Source: Solea solea (lineage: Eukaryota > Chordata > Actinopteri > Pleuronectiformes > Soleidae). Taken from it: a stretch of DNA of 64,000 bases. Location of the stretch: assembly GCF_958295425.1 (NCBI RefSeq), contig NC_081145.1, positions 18,487,772 through 18,551,771 of the forward strand. Reading direction: 5' to 3'. The notes under the pieces are model-generated. The model searched no databases. It was given only the letters and a program-made list of their open reading frames with translations, and was not told the origin of the DNA. Numbering within the stretch: position 1 is the stretch's first letter; every line of letters begins with the position of its first letter. Shown here piece by piece: positions 15,045-64,000 of the stretch. The position numbers and the translations under genes were made by a program.

Positions 15045-15970
15045 TTAAAAAACAATATAGTACCTCCTCAACGTGGGCGGAGTCATCATAGCACGGCTGC
15101 ATGAAACTGCCATGACTTTGTTTTACACGCGACACACGAACGAGTGATAAGTGACTTGTAAAGCAGTTGTTGTCGGTGTACTGAATCTTTAGAATCAGTT
15201 CATTAAAAAGATTTGTTTACATTTGCATGACTGGAGCACAGACTCAGTCGGACAGCTTCTTTTCAGTGTTGAGATTTTAAAGGCGACAAAGACCGGAAGC
15301 TCCAATTAACGCTGCGTTTGTGTGTGTATCTGCGTCATTACCTCGTTTATGAAACCCTGAAGTTTCAGAACAAACAGTTCAGCCACTGCTGAGAAAATAG
15401 TGTTGTATTGTTGTCCTGGGCTCTGCCAAGCGGATCTGCACTTCCCGAAGCTGATGATGTCATCAGAAATCCTCAACACTCCTCTCACCACCGTAGCTCC
15501 TCCTGGTGCGGGCACTACTCCGGGCACATCCGGTTGCGTAAATTCAACCGCAGAAGAAGAACTAGTCTCGTTGTAGCTGCTGAGCATATCGGTTGAGAAC
15601 ATGTCTTCGAAAAAAAGATCAGTTTGCTCTGTTCTGGGTTGTAGTAAACAAGGACAGACGCTCCACAAGCTCCCCACCAATGAGCAAACAAAAGCTCAGT
15701 GGATATTGTTCATTTCTGATGGGAATGTGCCTGCTACATTTCCCAAAATTCTCCATGTATGTGGCAACCACTTCACGGAGGATTGTTACACAAACTTCGC
15801 GCAATACAAAGCAGGGCACAGCACCACACTTCGCCTCAAAGAAGGAGCAGTACCTACAATACATGCTGGATTACCTGCAGCACAAGTAAGTATTTCAAAC
15901 AGTAATACTGTCTTTGTGTGCTCGTTCTGCCGTTTAGCATTAGCGATAGCCGGCTACATGCTAAGCTACA

Positions 15971-16495
15971 CGCGTTCGCTCGTGTTTCAATTGCGTGTAT
16001 GGGTATGGTAAACACGGCTGTATTGTGGGTGACTAACCGGGGAGCACAGAGCTAAGCAGGCTTATCGCTGTAGAAGTTTGGGACCGTGTTCGCTCGTTTC
16101 AATTGCGTGTATGCGTCTCTCCATGCCGGTAAACACGGCTGTATTGTGGGTGACTAACCGGGGATCACAGAGCTAAGCAGGCTAATCGCTGTAGAAGTTT
16201 GGGACCGTGTTCGCTCGTTTCAATTGCGTGTATGCGTCTCTCCATGCCGATAAACACGGCTGTATTTTGGGTGACTAACCGGGGAGCACAGAGCTAAGCA
16301 GGCTAATCGCTGTAGAAGTTTGGGACCGTGTTCGCTCGTTTCAATTGCGTGTATGCGTCTCTCCATGCCGATAAACACGGCTGTATTTTGGGTGACTAAC
16401 CGGGGAGCACAGAGCTAAGCAGGCTAATCGCTGTAGAAGTTTGGGACCGTGTTCGCTCGTTTCAATTGCGTGCATGTGTCTCTCTCACTTGTAAA
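15971..16495 (+). repeat. 121-bp tandem repeat, about 4.3 copies, inside THAP intron 1
   Basis: The core TTCGCTCG recurs at 15975, 16089, 16210, 16331 and 16452, giving spacings of 114, 121, 121 and 121 bp. Each unit also carries TTTCAATTGCGTG, AACACGGCTGTATT and a GTGACTAACCGGGG block ending in GCTGTAGAAGTTTGGGACC. The copies are almost identical, so the expansion is recent. The last copy is truncated after the TTTCAATTGCGTG part. Confidence 0.95.
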
Positions 16496-18672
16496 CACAA
16501 CGTTATTCTGGCGGTGTTGGAAACGTGTGTTTATGTTAAAGTAGGGAACAAGTTATAGTCGAATTGGGGCAGATTCAGGAAAGTTAATGAAGTAGAAAGC
16601 CAGTCTTTTGAGCATGATCTGTATTATTGTTTTAACCTTTACTATTTTCCATACCAGGATCGTTTTATCCACACGGGCACACAAACAGAAGCTCCAAGTG
16701 TGAGAACATGTGCCACTCAACTGTCAATTGGGACCTTGAAAGCACACGTGCACAGCCAAAGTAAGTAGAATTGAAATTTCATAAGAACCAAATTATTGAA
16801 GAGCATGAAATGTTCACACATTGTATCTACTCCATAGGGACCCAGACACCAGTGTTGTCACATGAGACTGCTGGCACACAAACCACACCACCGGAGCACA
16901 TGTTTTCATCCACACCTATAAAGGTGCCAGGGTTTGGACCACAAAAAAGAGCACGTGTTGAGTCAGAGGAGGAAGAGGGATTCACCTCACCAGAGTCACA
17001 AGTCGACCCAAATGACCCAACCTTTACTCCTGGCGGATCCCTAACAACACATGATTCAACAATGTTGTAAGTACGGACTTCAAGTTCACTAGGCATGTCA
17101 CTTCAGATCAAAGAAGTGAGGCTAAATGCTTTTTGTCTTGTTACATTTGTAGGACGGAAAGTGCTGTATACATGGATAAAAAATACATTGTATTTGAGTC
17201 CTGCCTGAGGGAGCTTTTTGACACATGTCCAGTGTGCAAGAGAAATTGCGAAGTGCAGCAGCAACAGAAGGGCACGTATGTTGCATTTCATCAAACGTGT
17301 CCAAAATGCAACTACTCCAGGAAGTGGCAAAGTCAGCCCATGATTAAGAACACCCCAGTTGGCAATGTACAGTTATCTGCTGCTACATATTTCACTGGTG
17401 CATCCTTCATCCAGCTGGAAAAGGTATTACTATTAATGTTTTGTCGTCCAAATCATATGACACTTTCGACCAATAAACAATTACTAAACACTGTTTGTAT
17501 TATTGTTATGTTAGCTATGCCGCGCCTTGCAGCTCCAGATTTCTCATTATGACACCTTCCGGAAACATGCAAGGAAATACCTGGAACCTGCAATCGTCCA
17601 CAAGTGGAAGAGTGACCAGCAGGTCCTTTTCTCCACATTGAAACCGGGGGGGGGAAAGTTCAAATTGCAGGAGACATGCGTGCAGATTCTCCAGGTAATG
17701 AAAAAAATCAGACCATCATCAAAATCATAAATACCACTTGTAAACATAAAAAAAATATCAATCACTAGTTTTTTTCAAGAAATGAATTCAGATTGTTCTG
17801 TTTACTTCAGGGCACTCTGCAAAATTTGGGAGCTATTCCTTGATGCACATGGACAGCAACAAAATTTTGGACCTTCAGCTAGTTCAGGTGTGTAGGATTC
17901 TCGTGACATTTTACTTTGAAGAAAGATATGTTTTTAATTTGTTGCTTCTACTTTGTGTTTGCAATTCTCTCAACAGAGCAATGAAGTGGGTGGTAGCTAC
18001 CACATGGAAAAGGAGGGACTACGACGAAGTCTGTACTACAGTGCAACGTCCTCAACATCGGGCCCAGAGAAGGTGGCAAAGTGGACATCATAACCGTTGG
18101 AACTAAAAATCAAAACAAGACTGTCTCATTGATTGGAATCTTTATATTACATAGGTTGTACCTTGCATCCATGCATCACAACGAAAATTCCAGCCGTGAG
18201 CAGGCAACAACAGCTTTAGGCCAAGCTGTCTACAGAGTGTCGTATTCGAAGGCCGAGAAGGGAGAACCCACCGCAAAGCCGGTCAAAACAGACCCCACGT
18301 ACAGTAAGTCACTAAAATGTTTTATTTACATTGAATAACATGTTTTACAAATACTGACAAACTTTTTTTGGCTTTGTTTTCTTTCTTATTAACTTAAATT
18401 AACACCTAACACAACAAATAACACATTTAAATTTAAATAGCTGAAAATGTAATGACACAGTAAAGAAATTACTGTCTGAATGTAATGTCATGGTTCTCTG
18501 TTACATTTTAAAGACTATGTGGCTGAATTGATGAGGCTGGTGTTCGAGGAGGTGATGGAGGACCCAGAGTCTTTCGCTGAGGACATGAGGAAGATCGCCA
18601 TCCCAGAGACCCTGTCGGCCCAGTATGACAGACCCTCAAAGGAGGAAGTCATTGCCTCACACGTGACCCGCT

Positions 18673-18761
18673 TCAGTCAAGGGGTGGGCGGAAGCCAACA
18701 TATTGTCCAGCCAGATCAGGAAACTCCTGGCGTTTCCGGCACACGACACACGACGGGATGA
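18673..18761. other. 89-bp antisense coding overlap of the two transposon genes
   Basis: The final THAP exon (stop TGA at 18759-18761, +) and the final ballast exon (stop TGA at 18675-18673, -) use the same 89 bp on opposite strands. On the plus strand this is the low-similarity tail after the conserved TRF; on the minus strand it encodes the end of the conserved ballast domain (CRKRQEFPDLAGQYVGF). Selection on the ballast side would therefore fix the THAP tail. Confidence 0.75.
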
Positions 18762-19970
18762 CAACTCGTACACGTCGTCCCAAATATCCCCAGCACCAGC
18801 TGACAAAGCTGCGGTATGCTAAATGCCGGTAGCGACTGGAAAGTGGATAGAAATGTAAAAAAAATTAAATGCTGCTCTTGCACTGTGCACATTTTGTGTA
18901 AAAAGTTTTTATTAAACATTTCTAAGACACAATTCTTTTATCACTTATGTGTGTTATGATTTAAATATGCCTCTTATTTGTATGTTACATACATACTCGT
19001 GTATTGTTCTTCCCCGCAAAGGCCCATAGTCTGCCCGGTAGATGTTGTTCATGTTCTGCAGTGTGTATGGGTTCAAACAGTTAGGCTCCAGGCCTGGATG
19101 GTAGATCATGCATGTTGGTGTGTCCGGAAGTTCATTCATTCTTCGGATAACCTAAAAAGGGGCAGAGCAATACTGTTACAGTAATGGCATAGAGTAATTA
19201 GGTGAAAATAGCTGGATCACTCAAAAAAGTGATGGATTATTACTGTAAAAAGGTTGGTACAATCATAGTTACAGACAGGATTAAAGAAAATGGAGCTACA
19301 TTATAGGGCACTGGCCTAATTACAGGATTGAAAATAGTAAAATTTGTACTACATTGCTTTATAAAAAAATAAATCTAAACTAACATTTACTAATCCATTA
19401 TTTTACAACACTTAGTTATTGCTTATGGGCAAAATAATACCATAAGTGTTTCTCTACAGCAGACGTTCTCCCCTTCTGTGGGCATCGTCATGCAGTTCCC
19501 ACAAGTGCACCTTCCAGAGATACAGTATTGTGTATGAAAAGTACAGTAACACATTTCATAGATTCAAGAGTTCTATTCATCAGTTACTCATATTACGTAC
19601 AGGGGAACAAAACTACTTTCATTACAGTCCCACCAGATATCTACACAAAATGTTAAAATGAGCGTTTCACCAAACAGCAAGTGATAAAATCTAAATAGAA
19701 AACAAAAAGACATGTACAGGTATTGCTGTAGCTTATACTTAGAAAAAATGGTGGGGGGAAGGGCGGGTTATCAAGCCTCAACTAGTGTCTCCCTACAATT
19801 AACCACATACAGTATTGGGAATATACACAGAGAAAACATTACCATTCTGAGGCGTCCTGCAGCAGTCTTTGTTGTGGAGGTGTTTCACTTGCGACAGTAT
19901 CTTCTGTCTCTGGGTCAGACTCCGGGTCAAATGTGTAAGGGATTACGGCGCGGGGTCGTGACACAGCCAT
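18673..19970 (-). CDS. P2X7 ballast-domain-like protein, 171 residues, four exons, intact
   Basis: Minus-strand exons 19970-19843, 19510-19441, 19151-18997 and 18835-18673 join in phases 2, 0 and 2 into one open frame from ATG (19970) to TGA (18675-18673). Residues 1-42 form an acidic, disordered-looking head. Then come WCTCGNCMTMPTEGENVCC, CMIYHPGLEPNCLNP, YRHLAYRSFVSWCWGYLGRR and VRVVIPSCVV. This is the conserved cysteine/histidine pattern of the cytosolic C-terminal 'ballast' domain of P2X7 receptors and of many stand-alone fish and invertebrate proteins. There is no transmembrane P2X part. In P2X7 this domain binds zinc and guanine nucleotide; the function of the stand-alone form is unknown. 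The last exon overlaps the THAP coding end antisense. A minus-strand AATAAA is available near 18320. No lesion is visible, unlike its partner gene. Confidence 0.8.
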
Positions 19971-20019
19971 TTAACAATGTTTTGATAATGACGAGCAGAG
20001 CATCAATCGTGCCAGAGGG

Positions 20020-20267
20020 AGAGCTGCGTATCTGATTTATTTGATTTCTGGCTCTAATAACAAAAAAGCAATTAAGACTGTCAATGTTTGGTCTTCCTTT
20101 TCTTTTTTTAATAACTCATCAGCTACCCTGGCAAAGTTTTATTTCTCCTGTTTTTGCTCTGTTTGTTCACTAATGTAATATGTTTATTTCTTCACTTTTG
20201 TAATGTAACCGTATTTCAATAAAGTTGTTTAAAAAAAAAAAAAAAAAAAAAAGAGCTGCGTATCTGA
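20020..20267 (+). mobile_element. Retro-inserted polyadenylated cDNA fragment with 16-bp target duplication
   Basis: AGAGCTGCGTATCTGA occurs at 20020-20035 and again, identically, at 20252-20267. Between them lie about 195 bp of AT-rich sequence, an AATAAA signal at 20218-20223, and a pure A run of about 20 nt starting at 20231. This is the signature of LINE-machinery retrotransposition of the 3' end of an mRNA, 5'-truncated. No coding sequence is included and the source gene is not recognised. It sits 66 bp upstream of the ballast-gene ATG. The perfect duplication and A tail indicate a young insertion. Confidence 0.9.
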
Positions 20268-20782
20268 GAGCTGACGTTCTAAACACGTCACTTCCAGGTA
20301 CCTGGCCAATCACAGGAAAGTGGGAAAGCTCTCGTTGGCTGGCCAATCACAACACAGTCCACGTTCTGGGGGGGTGGTTTTGGTCTGAAACAGCGCGGCT
20401 GACGAGAGCGTCAGTGAGGAGATATTTTGATCGGCTCGTTTGCAGCGATTACAAGGTTTTGAACCATGAAAACAAGTTAATATATGTAAGTAGACCTCCA
20501 TAACTAACATATATGTGTGATACAAGCATTCGATGTCGCCTTTAAACATTTCTTTGCTAAAAGTTGGAGATTAACGCATGTTTTCAGGATTTTTAAGTCT
20601 TTAACTGATCTACAGTTCGGCATTGTTCCATTTGATTCTTGTGTCGGACGTCGTGCTCATGACTCTTCCAGTGACAACACTCTGACCAATCAGTGACCGG
20701 AAGTCTGACGACGTCATCTTTAGTATTGGCTTAGCTGGCTTGGAACCTCACCAGAGCAGGTACTCAAAAAAGTACCAGTTAA

Positions 20783-22786: not shown

Positions 22787-22943
22787 AGGGGGTGGAGTGG
22801 CTCAGTGGTTAAGACCCTACCTTGTGTACGAAAGACATCATGGTCGCAAGTTCGATTCCACCCCTGGCTAATTGTACTTGTTTCCATTGTAAGTCGCTTT
22901 GGATAAAAGCGTCTGCTAAATGACATGTAATGTAATGTAATAT
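22787..22943 (+). mobile_element. tRNA-derived SINE with UnaL2-type 3' tail
   Basis: The 5' part has a pol III A box (GTGGCTCAGTGG, about 22797-22808) and B box (GTTCGATTCC at 22850-22859), as in a tRNA. The 3' part contains GTCGCTTTGGATAAAAGCGTCTGCTAAATG, split here over 22891-22920, which folds into a small hairpin with a GGATA loop like the 3' recognition hairpin of eel-type L2-clade LINEs. It ends in ATGTA/TGTAA short tandem repeats. It is nearly intact and lies about 2 kb upstream of mgat4c. Confidence 0.9.
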
Positions 22944-24822: not shown

Positions 24823-26505
24823 ATGAGGCTGATATGGAAGTCCATGGACAAGATGAGGTGTTTCAGGAAACGATCCATGTTCCCATTCCTCGGCTTCTTC
24901 GTCACCTTTCTGCTCTTCTTTAACCTGTACATGGATGGTGGATATGTTCTGGTAGGTTTCTCATTGTGACATTTATTAAATATGATGATGCTCAAGTGCT
25001 TTGTCTTTTTTGTTCAGCTCAGCGTGCACTTGTTTTTAAGTCATTTCCCTGTCATTTTAGGAGGCTGAAAAAAGACAACTGGGGGAGACACTGATGCATC
25101 CTGCAAATTCTGAAAGATATGTCCACACATTTAGAGACTTATCCAATTTCTCTGGGACCATCAATGTGACATATCGATATCTTGCAGGGATTCCTCTGAC
25201 ACGCAAAAGTAGGTATTTCTACCAAAAATGATACCACTTTGATGTTTGAACGTGTCAAATGAAACACAACAAGAAGTATTTTAGGATTTAGTATAGTAAA
25301 GTATAGTAAAGTGACTCAAGTATTTTGTGTTCACAGAGTATCTGACCATTGGTCTGTCATCTGTCAAGAGGAAAAAGGGAAATTATCTTCTAGAAACCAT
25401 CAAATCCATATTTGATCAGTCCAGTTATGAGGAACTTAAAGAGATTGTGGTCGTGGTCCACCTTGCAGACTTTGACCTGGTCTGGTGTGAGAACCTGGTG
25501 CAGGAAATCACCAGGAAATTTGCTCACCACATCATTGCCGGACGCCTCCTGGTGATCCAGGCTCTAGAGGAGTATTATCCATCTCTTGATGGGTTAAAAA
25601 GGAACTACAATGACCCAGAGGACAGGGTTCGTTTCCGCTCTAAGCAGAATGTTGACTACGCTTTCCTCCTCAACTTCTGCACAAACCTCTCTCACTTCTA
25701 CATGATGTTAGAGGATGATGTGCGCTGCTCCAGGAACTTCCTGACAGCGCTGAAGAAGGTGATCACCTCCAGAGAGGGCTCCTATTGGGTGATGCTGGAG
25801 TTTTCCAAGCTGGGCTACATCGGCAAGCTGTATCACTCCAGAGACCTTCCACGTCTGGCTCATTTCCTGCTCATGTTCTACCAGGAAATGCCCTGTGACT
25901 GGCTCCTCATCCATTTCAGAGGGCTGCTCGCTCAGAAGGATGTGATCCGCTTCAAGCCCTCACTTTTCCAGCACATGGGTTACTACTCTTCCTACAAAGG
26001 AGCAGAGAACAAACTGAAGGATGACGACTTTGAGGAAGACTCCATAGACATTCCTGACAACCCCCCTGCCAGCCTTTACACAAACATAAATGTTTTTGAA
26101 AACTATGATGCCACAAAGGCTTACAGTAGTATAGCTGATGAATATTTCTGGGGGAAACCCCCCTGCACTGGAGATTTCTTTATCATTATCTTCAGTAAAC
26201 CAACTAAAATCAGCAGAATTAAAATTGTCACAGGTACAGACGATCGGCAGAATGACATTCTTCATCACGGAGCTCTGGAGGTGGGCCAGAGATCTGTGGA
26301 AACTAAGCATGGAAGGCAGTGTACATCCTACATAACATTAGGGGAGTTTAAAGGTGGAAACATTGAGGTTAACAACGTGGACCATAAGATTGGCTTTGAC
26401 ATTGAGTGTGTTCGAATAGTAGTTACTGCCAATCAGAAAGAATGGCTCATCATCAGAACTATCAGTTTATGGACCACACAGGCAGTAAGCCAATTAAAGA
26501 AGTAA
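24823..26505 (+). CDS. mgat4c: MGAT4 family member C, GlcNAc-transferase-like (481 residues)
   Basis: Three coding exons (24823-24951, 25061-25208, 25337-26505) join in phases 0 and 1. The first follows a splice acceptor ending at 24808, so untranslated exons lie upstream. The product is a type II Golgi membrane protein: short basic cytosolic tail, membrane anchor at about residues 18-37, a stem with NFS and NVT sequons, then the family catalytic region ([40 protein letters not shown], a MLEDDV acidic motif near residues 218-220, [20 protein letters not shown]) and a C-terminal domain. Family members add beta-1,4-linked GlcNAc to the alpha-1,3 mannose arm of N-glycans; activity of the C member on standard substrates is weak or disputed. 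Length and sequence closely match vertebrate MGAT4C (human 478). An ATTAAA lies near 26742. Confidence 0.95.
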
Positions 26506-37162: not shown

Positions 37163-49667
<12,505 letters not shown>

Positions 49668-60012: not shown

Positions 60013-61389
60013 TATTTTATATTCCATTTCTGCCAAATTTAATTAATTTCACCTCAATCTTACACACTGCTTAAGTTGGTAGCAAACCGTGTTATAGCTG
60101 AAATATCTTCTGAGTTTGATTGCAGTCCAGGTTAGCCACCTGTGATATTTAAATTAGCACCACTGTCGTTATAGCAACTGCATGCCCTGTGAAACTTAGG
60201 TAGAGACACGAGCATCAAACTGAACTTGAACCTGATCACTTTGAGTGCTTCTTGCATCCACTGGTAGTTAATTAAAGGCATTCTAAACACGTCCAGTGTA
60301 AAGATTAACCAAATATGGAGGTTTTCCACACTGGCTTCCATGTATTGTCATTACCATAAAGACATTAAGAGCTGTTGAACGTGCAATAGTTGGTTTAAGG
60401 GATCAAGGATTACCTTAAAGTGCCACCAGTAATCCTGTAGTTTCTTAAAGTTGATGTGATGTTCTCTCTTTCCAGGATGAAATGTTTCAACTATCAGAAG
60501 GACATGTTGCGTTCAAGATAATTACAGTTAAAAGTAGGGCTGCACTTCAACATCAGAACAGAGTGTGAAACGCTGACCACAAACTTAAAAAAGATATTTG
60601 ATTTACAGTCATATAAAACAGAGATCATCATATCCTAGTAAATGGAACCAGAGGAATGGTCGACATTTGCTTGATAAATGGCTGAAATGACAATCAATTA
60701 TCAAAATTGTTTGCAGGGAATTTCCTCACAGTTGAATAATAAACTACAGTGCAGCCCATAAAGTCTGAGTTTCAGAGAATGTCCAGAGTCGAAACTCAAA
60801 CTCCTAAACTGCTCATTTGATTAATCTTATTTAATTACTTTAATTGATAAGTGTAAGTCATATTAATACAGGCTCAAATAGCAGGCTTTTAACAATGCCT
60901 GTTGGTCCTAGCTTTGTGTTTAGTTGTAATGTTGCTGACCTAATAAAATCAGTTGCTCAGAGTAGAGATGAGTGTTTTGTTACATGCATACAGTCTATCT
61001 GCTTAATTGTTCAATTGCGTTTTTTTCTGAAATTGGAATGTGAAGACTTGTGAAACTGGTGTTTACTTCAGAGAAGGTGCACTAGAAACTGAGACGTTTT
61101 GTTACTTCTGGCAAATGTGAGCAGGAATTAACAAACATGTATTTTGGAGATATTGGTATGTACACATTTTGGATTGTTTCTATGTGGTAATGTTCGTAAT
61201 ACTGCCCAATGATGATGTGATGTGGATTATCCACAACCAGTCATTGTGAAACCTGCGGGTCAAGCAGTGTGGATTACACAACTTGACCTGCAAAAATAAT
61301 ATACTCTAATCTACGCGCTGAACCTGCATTGCACCTATTTTTATTATAAGGCACCTTTTCAAAAATCAGTTTGGAACTTTATATAGTTA
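60013..61389. other. Non-coding, nothing recognised
   Basis: AT-rich spacer upstream of adm. No exon or repeat family identified. Confidence 0.4.
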
Positions 61390-61505
61390 TGGCATGTTTC
61401 CACCGGCTCGATTCACCTTGCCTCGGCATGGCCCGGTTGCATTTCCACTAGCATAGTACCTGGTACCTGGTACTTGTTTTAGTACCTGGAGGAAGTACTG
61501 AACAA
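61390..61505. mobile_element. Terminal fragment related to the TTAA transposon at 15-20.8 kb
   Basis: CTGGTACTTGTTTTAGTACC at 61468-61487 closely matches the outward end of the 15045-20782 element (CTGGTACTTTTTTGAGTACC, minus strand from 20778). The 5' neighbour (CCACCGGCTCGATTCACCTT, CTCGGCATGGCCCGG, TTTCCACTAGCATAGTACC) fits the mosaic ends of this dispersed fish family. No internal gene is present, so this is a non-autonomous or truncated copy. Confidence 0.5.
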
Positions 61506-64000
61506 ATAGTTTTGATTAACTGATTCTAATGATTCAGTTACACTGAAAACAACTGCTGCCATAGTGGAAAACGGCCAATAGTGATGCCCTCTTCTTTTTT
61601 CAGCTACAGATAGTTTTATATCTAGTGTCATGTATAAAAATAAATGATAAAATTATTAAATAAAGTTAGTGCCTGGTGATGAATGTATAATTTACAGATT
61701 TAAAACAGGAAACAACTTTGCACATCTTCCTTAAGACGGGTGCGTGAAGAGAAAAATGTAGATCATTGAGTTGCAACGAGACTCTCGCACAGTCTAAACT
61801 TGCAAGCATGATTTTATTATCCCAACATTTGTTTTGCGCAACAATCATTATCATAAATGAATATAAACAATTAAACATTTTTACATTGATACTCTCTCTT
61901 GGCTTCATCATGATTGTTTTTCAGATACATCAATATTGAGCAGCGTTCAGCAAACGTAACGGCAGCCAAAATTAAATCAATAAATTTGTCATGTCGGTTT
62001 TGATATGAATTTTCAACACAGACTCATTTGAATGTTTGATGGGTCTATAAAAGAAGCCATGGAGTTGGATGCACACAGTGCTGTCAGGGCAACAACACGG
62101 CACCTTTCACAAGCCAAAAGATGATTCAGGAGATCTGTTCTGACTTGATCCCTTCCAGTTCTCAAATTAGTATCTGTTTTTCATCCTCGTACAGCGGAAT
62201 TTCGTAACACACTATCATCATCAATGGTTGAATGTTTTTTGTATCCATATCAATAAGCCAAGACACGTTTTGTTTTTTTTGTTCTTGGAAGTTGTTGCTG
62301 CTTTTACGTTACATACAAGAATAATCAAGACAGTATGGTGCTTGGACATAGTACAGTCTCATGGAAATCTTCAAAGTCATGGGTCAGTAGAGCACAGTAT
62401 GAGCTCAACATTTGCAGGCGCCCATTATATTGTATTATTAGACACTCTGTGTCTATTAATAGTCCCACGTTCAGTTCTTTGTTACCACTAAGAGAAAAAA
62501 AAGGGAGGAATACATGGTGTTTTCCTCACAAGTGTCTCTGGAAATACACTGCTTTACTTGCTCTGTTTACACGTGAGACCCAAGCATTCCTCTTAGTTCA
62601 TGTTGAAGACGGTAATGGAAAATTACGATGAGTGGTGTTTTGAATGGAAAAAAACAAGATCAGATATTTGCTGTTTACATGTTCAAAATATCCGTTTACC
62701 CAAGGGAGACAATGTTCACTTCTCCCTGACTGATATGGTGAGAGAGAAATGGCAACATTCAGGATAATCATTTTTTTATTGGGTATTGCTTGTCTTGTCT
62801 TGGTCCGTTGTACATATTTTAGGCTCAGCACAGCTCCCCATTCTGATGCTCACTTTGAACTTCTCTTGACAATGTCGACATGCCTAAATGCATTAAGTTG
62901 CTGTCATGTCGTAGTCTAATATACCTAATAAAGTGGATAGTGGCTGAAGATACAAATTGTACATATATTGCTTCTCAAACATTGCTGAAATGTAGGTTTT
63001 CACAATCGTACCTGGCTGCCATGAATATGGAAGAACAATTCAGTGAAATTTGATCAAAATTGCAATAATTTAAAAATATCATTTTAGATCAATTATTGTC
63101 TTGACCTTTACACCTTTTCCTTATTCTAGGGACTGAAGAGAATCTTTGTTTCTCACAGATCTTCACAAGTATCACACAGTTATCGTTTTAAAATATGATA
63201 CAAAGTGATTCACGCTATCAAAATTCAGCCCTAGCCACGAGTAGGCTCAGCGCAACAAAAGCAACAACATTGACTGTAGTGGATCTACATGATGATTCAT
63301 GTTTCAACCGATTAATAGGACAACTTTATATCGTGGGATGGTTTTGTCCCAGAAAACAGCATGAATACCAAAAAGCTCTAATTGATTGAATCTCTCCAAC
63401 TCATTTTAGTTTGATTCAGTTTAAAATGTCTTTATCTTTTCCCCCAAAGACAGCTGATGATTATTGTTGATTTAGAGACAGAACAGAATGACTGAATAAA
63501 CATACATTTTCTTCAGTTGTGATATAAGTAAAGCATTTGACTTTAGCGTCCACTGAAAGTCGGGCTACAACCAGGACAGGTCAACAAGAGACACACTGAA
63601 CACAAAGATACAAACAACCATTCATACAGTGTTATTCCACTCTCCATTACTACATTATGTGCAGGTCTTATTCCTGGCTCATTCATGCAAACATCGTAAT
63701 CCCATCTTTATTTTATCATGAGGGAGGATAATTCAAAGCTCCACTCAATAACGTTCCAGAGTTGTTAAATCTTGTGCTGTGTCACGTTTTTGTGTCTGAT
63801 AATCGTTCAAACTCAAAACGAGCGTCCTCGGATTGGATTTCACTTTCTGTGAAGCGGCTTATGCTCTTAGAGCCTGTAAAAACGCAACTGCAGGAGGATA
63901 CAGTAAATGATGACTTTGTGTTGGGCCTCAGCATTACTGCATCATGTTGAGCCCCCCCACTCTCGTTTTCTGTTTCATTAGAGCAATAACTGAATTGGAT
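61506..64000. other. Non-coding to the window end
   Basis: No exon, RNA gene or repeat recognised. Open frames are short and unconserved in appearance. Confidence 0.4.

Follow-up and report, generated by a model that had tools for sequence, protein, structure and literature searches.

What unites a THAP-type transposase gene and a gene for the ballast domain of the P2X7 receptor, lying tail to tail in the genome of Solea solea? We analyzed a 64,000-nucleotide stretch of contig NC_081145.1 (the window), in which an original prediction had placed a two-gene TTAA transposon at 15045-20782, with the ballast gene as its accessory gene. We conclude, with a probability of roughly 0.93, that the element lies at 15277-20545 and is a degenerate copy of a Kolobok cut-and-paste DNA transposon of the Kol0 lineage, the likeness to Kol0 being drawn from its published description. 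The two convergent multi-exon genes that had been predicted are indeed present, with six exons on the + strand and four on the - strand bearing GT/AG splice sites.

The + strand gene encodes the transposase. Exon 1 (15601-15885) carries the expected THAP domain (PF05485, E = 8.9e-13), and THAP fingers have been reported in Kolobok transposases (PMC6004289). It is followed by exons 2 (16658-16760), 3 (16838-17066), and 4 (17153-17423; the CPVC..C..C part), by exon 5 (17515-17694), whose frame is broken in a poly-G run at 17646-17654, and by exon 6 (17811-17887). Farther along the same strand are a coding remnant (17977-18090), in which HMEKEGLRRSL is fused to YYSATSSTSGPEKVAKWTS by one deletion and which is cut short by a second, the penultimate exon (18155-18303; LYLASMHHNEN...), and the last exon (18514-18761), whose acceptor AG was read directly. 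The poly-G frame break sits just ahead of the first catalytic D (GDMRADSPG), while the deletions have cost this copy the second D, in IVTDRH, and the E, in SLEAFH, together with the DxxH motif. Since the frame break and the two deletions removed the second catalytic D and the E, this copy cannot mobilize itself. Intron 1 also contains a 121-bp tandem repeat (16009-16484, +; 3.9 copies, 98% alike).

Searches with the transposase returned 569 matches. The best 120 listed span 383-785 residues, and those with names are from fish; the closest among them, from Solea solea, is 99% identical across 65% of the query. The query included ten noncoding residues after GLRRSLYY, which were excluded from the alignment of the relatives. 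DxxH lies between the second D and the E in all 8 of the longer relatives aligned, and reads YDVWH in 6. The DDD/E RNase H fold is assigned through homology to these longer fish relatives and through a fold model of one relative, P0101 (mean pLDDT 68.8). Here, as for the second gene, the models are of relatives (P0101 for the transposase and P0001 for the ballast protein), not of the window proteins themselves. No piggyBac domain was found in the exons scanned or in relatives P0101 and P0099, the relatives being THAP/Mutator-like.

The - strand gene is intact and encodes KolX. Its four exons (19843-19970, with the start codon; 19441-19510, with the zinc cysteines CTCGNC and CC; 18997-19151; and 18673-18835, with the stop) run from 19970 to 18673 with canonical splice sites and yield an uninterrupted 171-residue protein. 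Once spliced, this protein matches the P2X7 ballast domain as foreseen (PF20478, E = 2.3e-18); in Pfam scans of single exons, only THAP and the last KolX exon rose above the cut-off. There were 96 matches to KolX (protein cluster member counts may include isoforms), including one from Solea solea, named “P2X purinoceptor 7-like”, that is 98% identical. Stand-alone ballast proteins are also listed from oysters, mussels, lancelet, coral, brachiopod, and sea cucumber. In viral contigs, 39 pattern matches contained 0 KolX relatives.

The window KolX shares with P2X7 (rat structure 6u9v) the PF20478 domain and, by way of the close relative P0001, its fold. All 14 significant matches in a fold search with the P0001 model were P2X7, at TM-scores of only ~0.5 by query length and rmsd of 8-13. 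All seven zinc-binding cysteines of P2X7 are kept and are nearly invariant across 46 proteins. Among the five GDP-site residues named in the available text of PMC7016195, the equivalents of R546, H547, and R578 are identical (3/5), whereas those of R574 and K583 differ; the Y550 equivalent is also retained. Unlike P2X7, the window KolX stands alone, without the channel part: the 171-residue protein has PF20478 only, with no P2X channel domain attached. Four other proteins, from two pipefish, a cyprinid, and an oyster (P0049, P0220, P0228, and P0239), have THAP and ballast in one chain, P0228 weakly so; these predictions are either gene-model fusions or real THAP-KolX proteins.

An intact KolX next to a transposase broken at three places could also mean that KolX is a domesticated host gene under selection and its neighbor a fossil. 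The 98% identical Solea protein is in keeping with this, as is nanor, which is described as probably a domesticated KolX (PMC9587614). Zebrafish nanor (nanor b is P0218) is, like the window KolX, a stand-alone ballast protein and aligns with it, but it differs in that presumed domestication and is listed as closer to a KolX-like protein of the P0068 type (52% identical, from the listing). However, the window KolX sits within TTAA-bounded transposon ends, further KolX-like proteins are listed from Solea (P0003, P0056, and P0240), and a short reading frame may survive by chance. Domestication is thus improbable here, and we continue to read the locus as a degenerate Kolobok copy.

The ends of this Kolobok copy were chosen by scoring the flush inverted match at all 80 TTAA pairs surrounding both genes. 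TTAA by itself is weak evidence of an end, because it occurs ~6 times per kb in this DNA. The flush inverted match is longest at 15277/20542 (8/8; 11/16), the runner-up pair reaching 4; none of 2000 dinucleotide shuffles reached a flush match of 8, and 15 reached 6. In this one copy, the termini of the 5,261-bp element thus consist of TTAA target-site duplications (15277-15280 and 20542-20545) flush with a terminal inverted repeat, AGGCGACA, which is short (8 bp; 15281-15288 on the + strand and 20534-20541 on the - strand). The perfect 13-bp inverted match that had been predicted (15276-15288 and 20534-20546) is real, and consists of the left TTAA, AGGCGACA, and one further T. Koloboks are described as having TTAA duplications and ends that start with RR (PMC9587614), and the Xenopus Kolobok termini are AG (PMC6004289). 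The single copy here has both features: TTAA is flush with the ends, and the termini at 15281/20541 read AG...CT, following the 5'-RR ... YY-3' rule.

Less probable still than domestication is that the element ends at the outer TTAAs, with the 13-bp match as a subterminal repeat. Both of these TTAAs exist as predicted (15045 and 20779), AGTACCTCCTC and AGTACCTGCTC are found 10 and 14 bp farther in, and the 13-bp arms are nearly equidistant from the outer edges (243 and 248 bp by the original prediction, consistent with the match as located). Yet the outer pair has no flush inverted match, its inner sequences being AAAACAAT (left) and CTGGTACT (right, reverse complement), and its right end starts with CT rather than RR, in contrast to the inner pair 15277/20542, whose ends follow the Kolobok rules. 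In addition, a second copy of 15162-15217, a piece of the left flank, is found at 61557-61501 (86% identity), where the remainder of the flank is absent. The predicted edges of 15045 and 20782 were therefore off by 232 bp on the left and 237 bp on the right, and the sequence between the outer TTAAs and 15277/20545 is most likely host DNA.

The second copy of the left-flank stretch (61501-61557) adjoins GGTACC-rich sequence and resembles a separate repeat. We also considered whether both flanks belong to a single interrupted repeat, joining them and comparing them with 61341-61640. This is unsupported because the entire signal came from the left flank (score 44.5); the right flank alone scored 23.0, against a maximum of 26.5 in 200 shuffles. 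Elsewhere, the window contains a UnaL2 LINE 3' element (22876-22929; Rfam RF00436), a 396-codon open frame with an MGAT4 conserved region and C-terminal domain (25315-26505), which is host glycosyltransferase-like, and an AMP deaminase exon of a neighboring host gene (38490-38834, -). Within the element, 16-bp direct repeats, AGAGCTGCGTATCTGA (20020-20035 and 20252-20267), enclose a retrocopy-like insert of 216 bp (20036-20251, +) that contains AATAAA and poly-A. This insertion was a later event, ~50 bp upstream of the KolX start codon.

The coding ends of the transposase and KolX overlap in antisense by 89 bp (18673-18761). If this arrangement is general, fish transposase C-termini should be encodable opposite KolX C-termini. 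We compared the 70 C-terminal residues of 120 transposases (the best 120 of 569 matches) with the 50 C-terminal residues of 33 KolX proteins, chosen from 96 for having GFR in the last 12 residues and a length of 140-300 residues, with 63 dropped. At a score of at least 14, a cut-off fixed after the scores were seen, 32 of 120 transposase-like tails were antisense-compatible. The controls at this cut-off, comprising shuffled tails (best of three), the 70 residues before the transposase tail, a KolX segment from farther upstream, and an N-terminal transposase segment, each gave 0/120. Lowering the cut-off to at least 12 admitted 35/120 real tails, 1/120 shuffles (best of three), and none of the unshuffled controls; at 10 or above, the counts were 39/120, 4/120 (best of three), and 1, 0, and 2, respectively.

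The overlap frame of the window itself is used by 28 of the 32 compatible tails. These include tails from Misgurnus, Danio, Perca, Sinocyclocheilus, Onychostoma, Carassius, and Triplophysa, although they are related proteins and do not represent independent events. The remaining 88/120 tails failed the test, perhaps because some gene models are truncated or were predicted differently. Judged by these protein sequences, the antisense tail-to-tail pairing seems to recur in other fish. Apparent contig coincidences (8 of 22 rows for KolX, compared with 11 for the transposase, all hand-picked) were discarded as no evidence, most of the contigs being tens of Mb long. That the two genes, one THAP-derived and one encoding a ballast protein, are chance neighbors is very unlikely: both families are common (569 and 96 matches), but here the two genes lie between common ends, their antisense coding overlap seems to recur in other fish, and the two-gene structure of Kol0 is published (PMC9587614).

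A broader proposition is that the Kol0 transposase and KolX form a conserved antisense-overlapping pair in fish (with matching stretches 17 to 42 residues long), with tails that constrain each other, and that in this sole lineage KolX alone is kept in copies whose transposase is dead. Taken as a whole, this is a tentative idea that we consider rather unlikely to hold. An aimed literature search on antisense overlap gave no Kolobok paper among the matches listed, and the main text of PMC9587614, supplements aside, contains neither “overlap” nor “antisense”. In this respect, the gene arrangement seen here goes beyond the main text of that paper.

In its other features, the element resembles Kol0 (Kolobok-1_XT type) as described in PMC9587614: TTAA duplication, RR..YY termini, a DDE transposase, and a second gene, KolX, with the ballast fold. 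It differs in being non-autonomous, through the frame break and two deletions in its transposase. P elements make an 8-bp target duplication. Compared with the P element and THAP9, the element here has a TTAA duplication and a KolX gene.

An intact transposase of the family would, by analogy with other DDE transposons, bind the ends through its THAP finger, then cut and insert at TTAA. Judging from the family, KolX may act as an accessory factor of this transposition reaction. Our best guess is that it is a zinc-held helical domain that might assist the transposase complex or its DNA ends; the nucleases and helicases carried by other Kolobok lineages (PMC9587614) provide an analogy for such a role. 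The window copy would be mobile only in trans, with a transposase supplied by another Kolobok.

The original prediction had further proposed that a THAP/TTAA transposon carries the ballast gene as an accessory gene, and that P2X7 could owe its ballast domain to elements of this type. This reading is supported by work already in print, and our own data, the recurring antisense tail-to-tail pair and the stand-alone ballast proteins listed from other animals, are in agreement with it. According to Kojima and Bao (2022), KolX is encoded by the Kol0 Koloboks and adopts the cytoplasmic ballast fold, and its fusion with a P2X4-like gene gave rise to P2X7 (PMC9587614). Capture of the ballast domain had been described by Rump et al. 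(2020), in whose main text the word stem “transpos” is absent (PMC7016195). The idea of a transposon source is thus already published, and is confirmed rather than newly proposed here.

Starting from raw sequence, our results independently confirm the published account of a transposon as the source of an immune-receptor domain. The antisense overlap binds the two genes more tightly than a common element does, and offers a means of recognizing such copies from protein data alone. The significance of these findings would rise if retention of KolX without the transposase were shown. If true, this would mean that KolX is itself selectable, whether by helping in trans, by silencing the transposase, or by serving the host.
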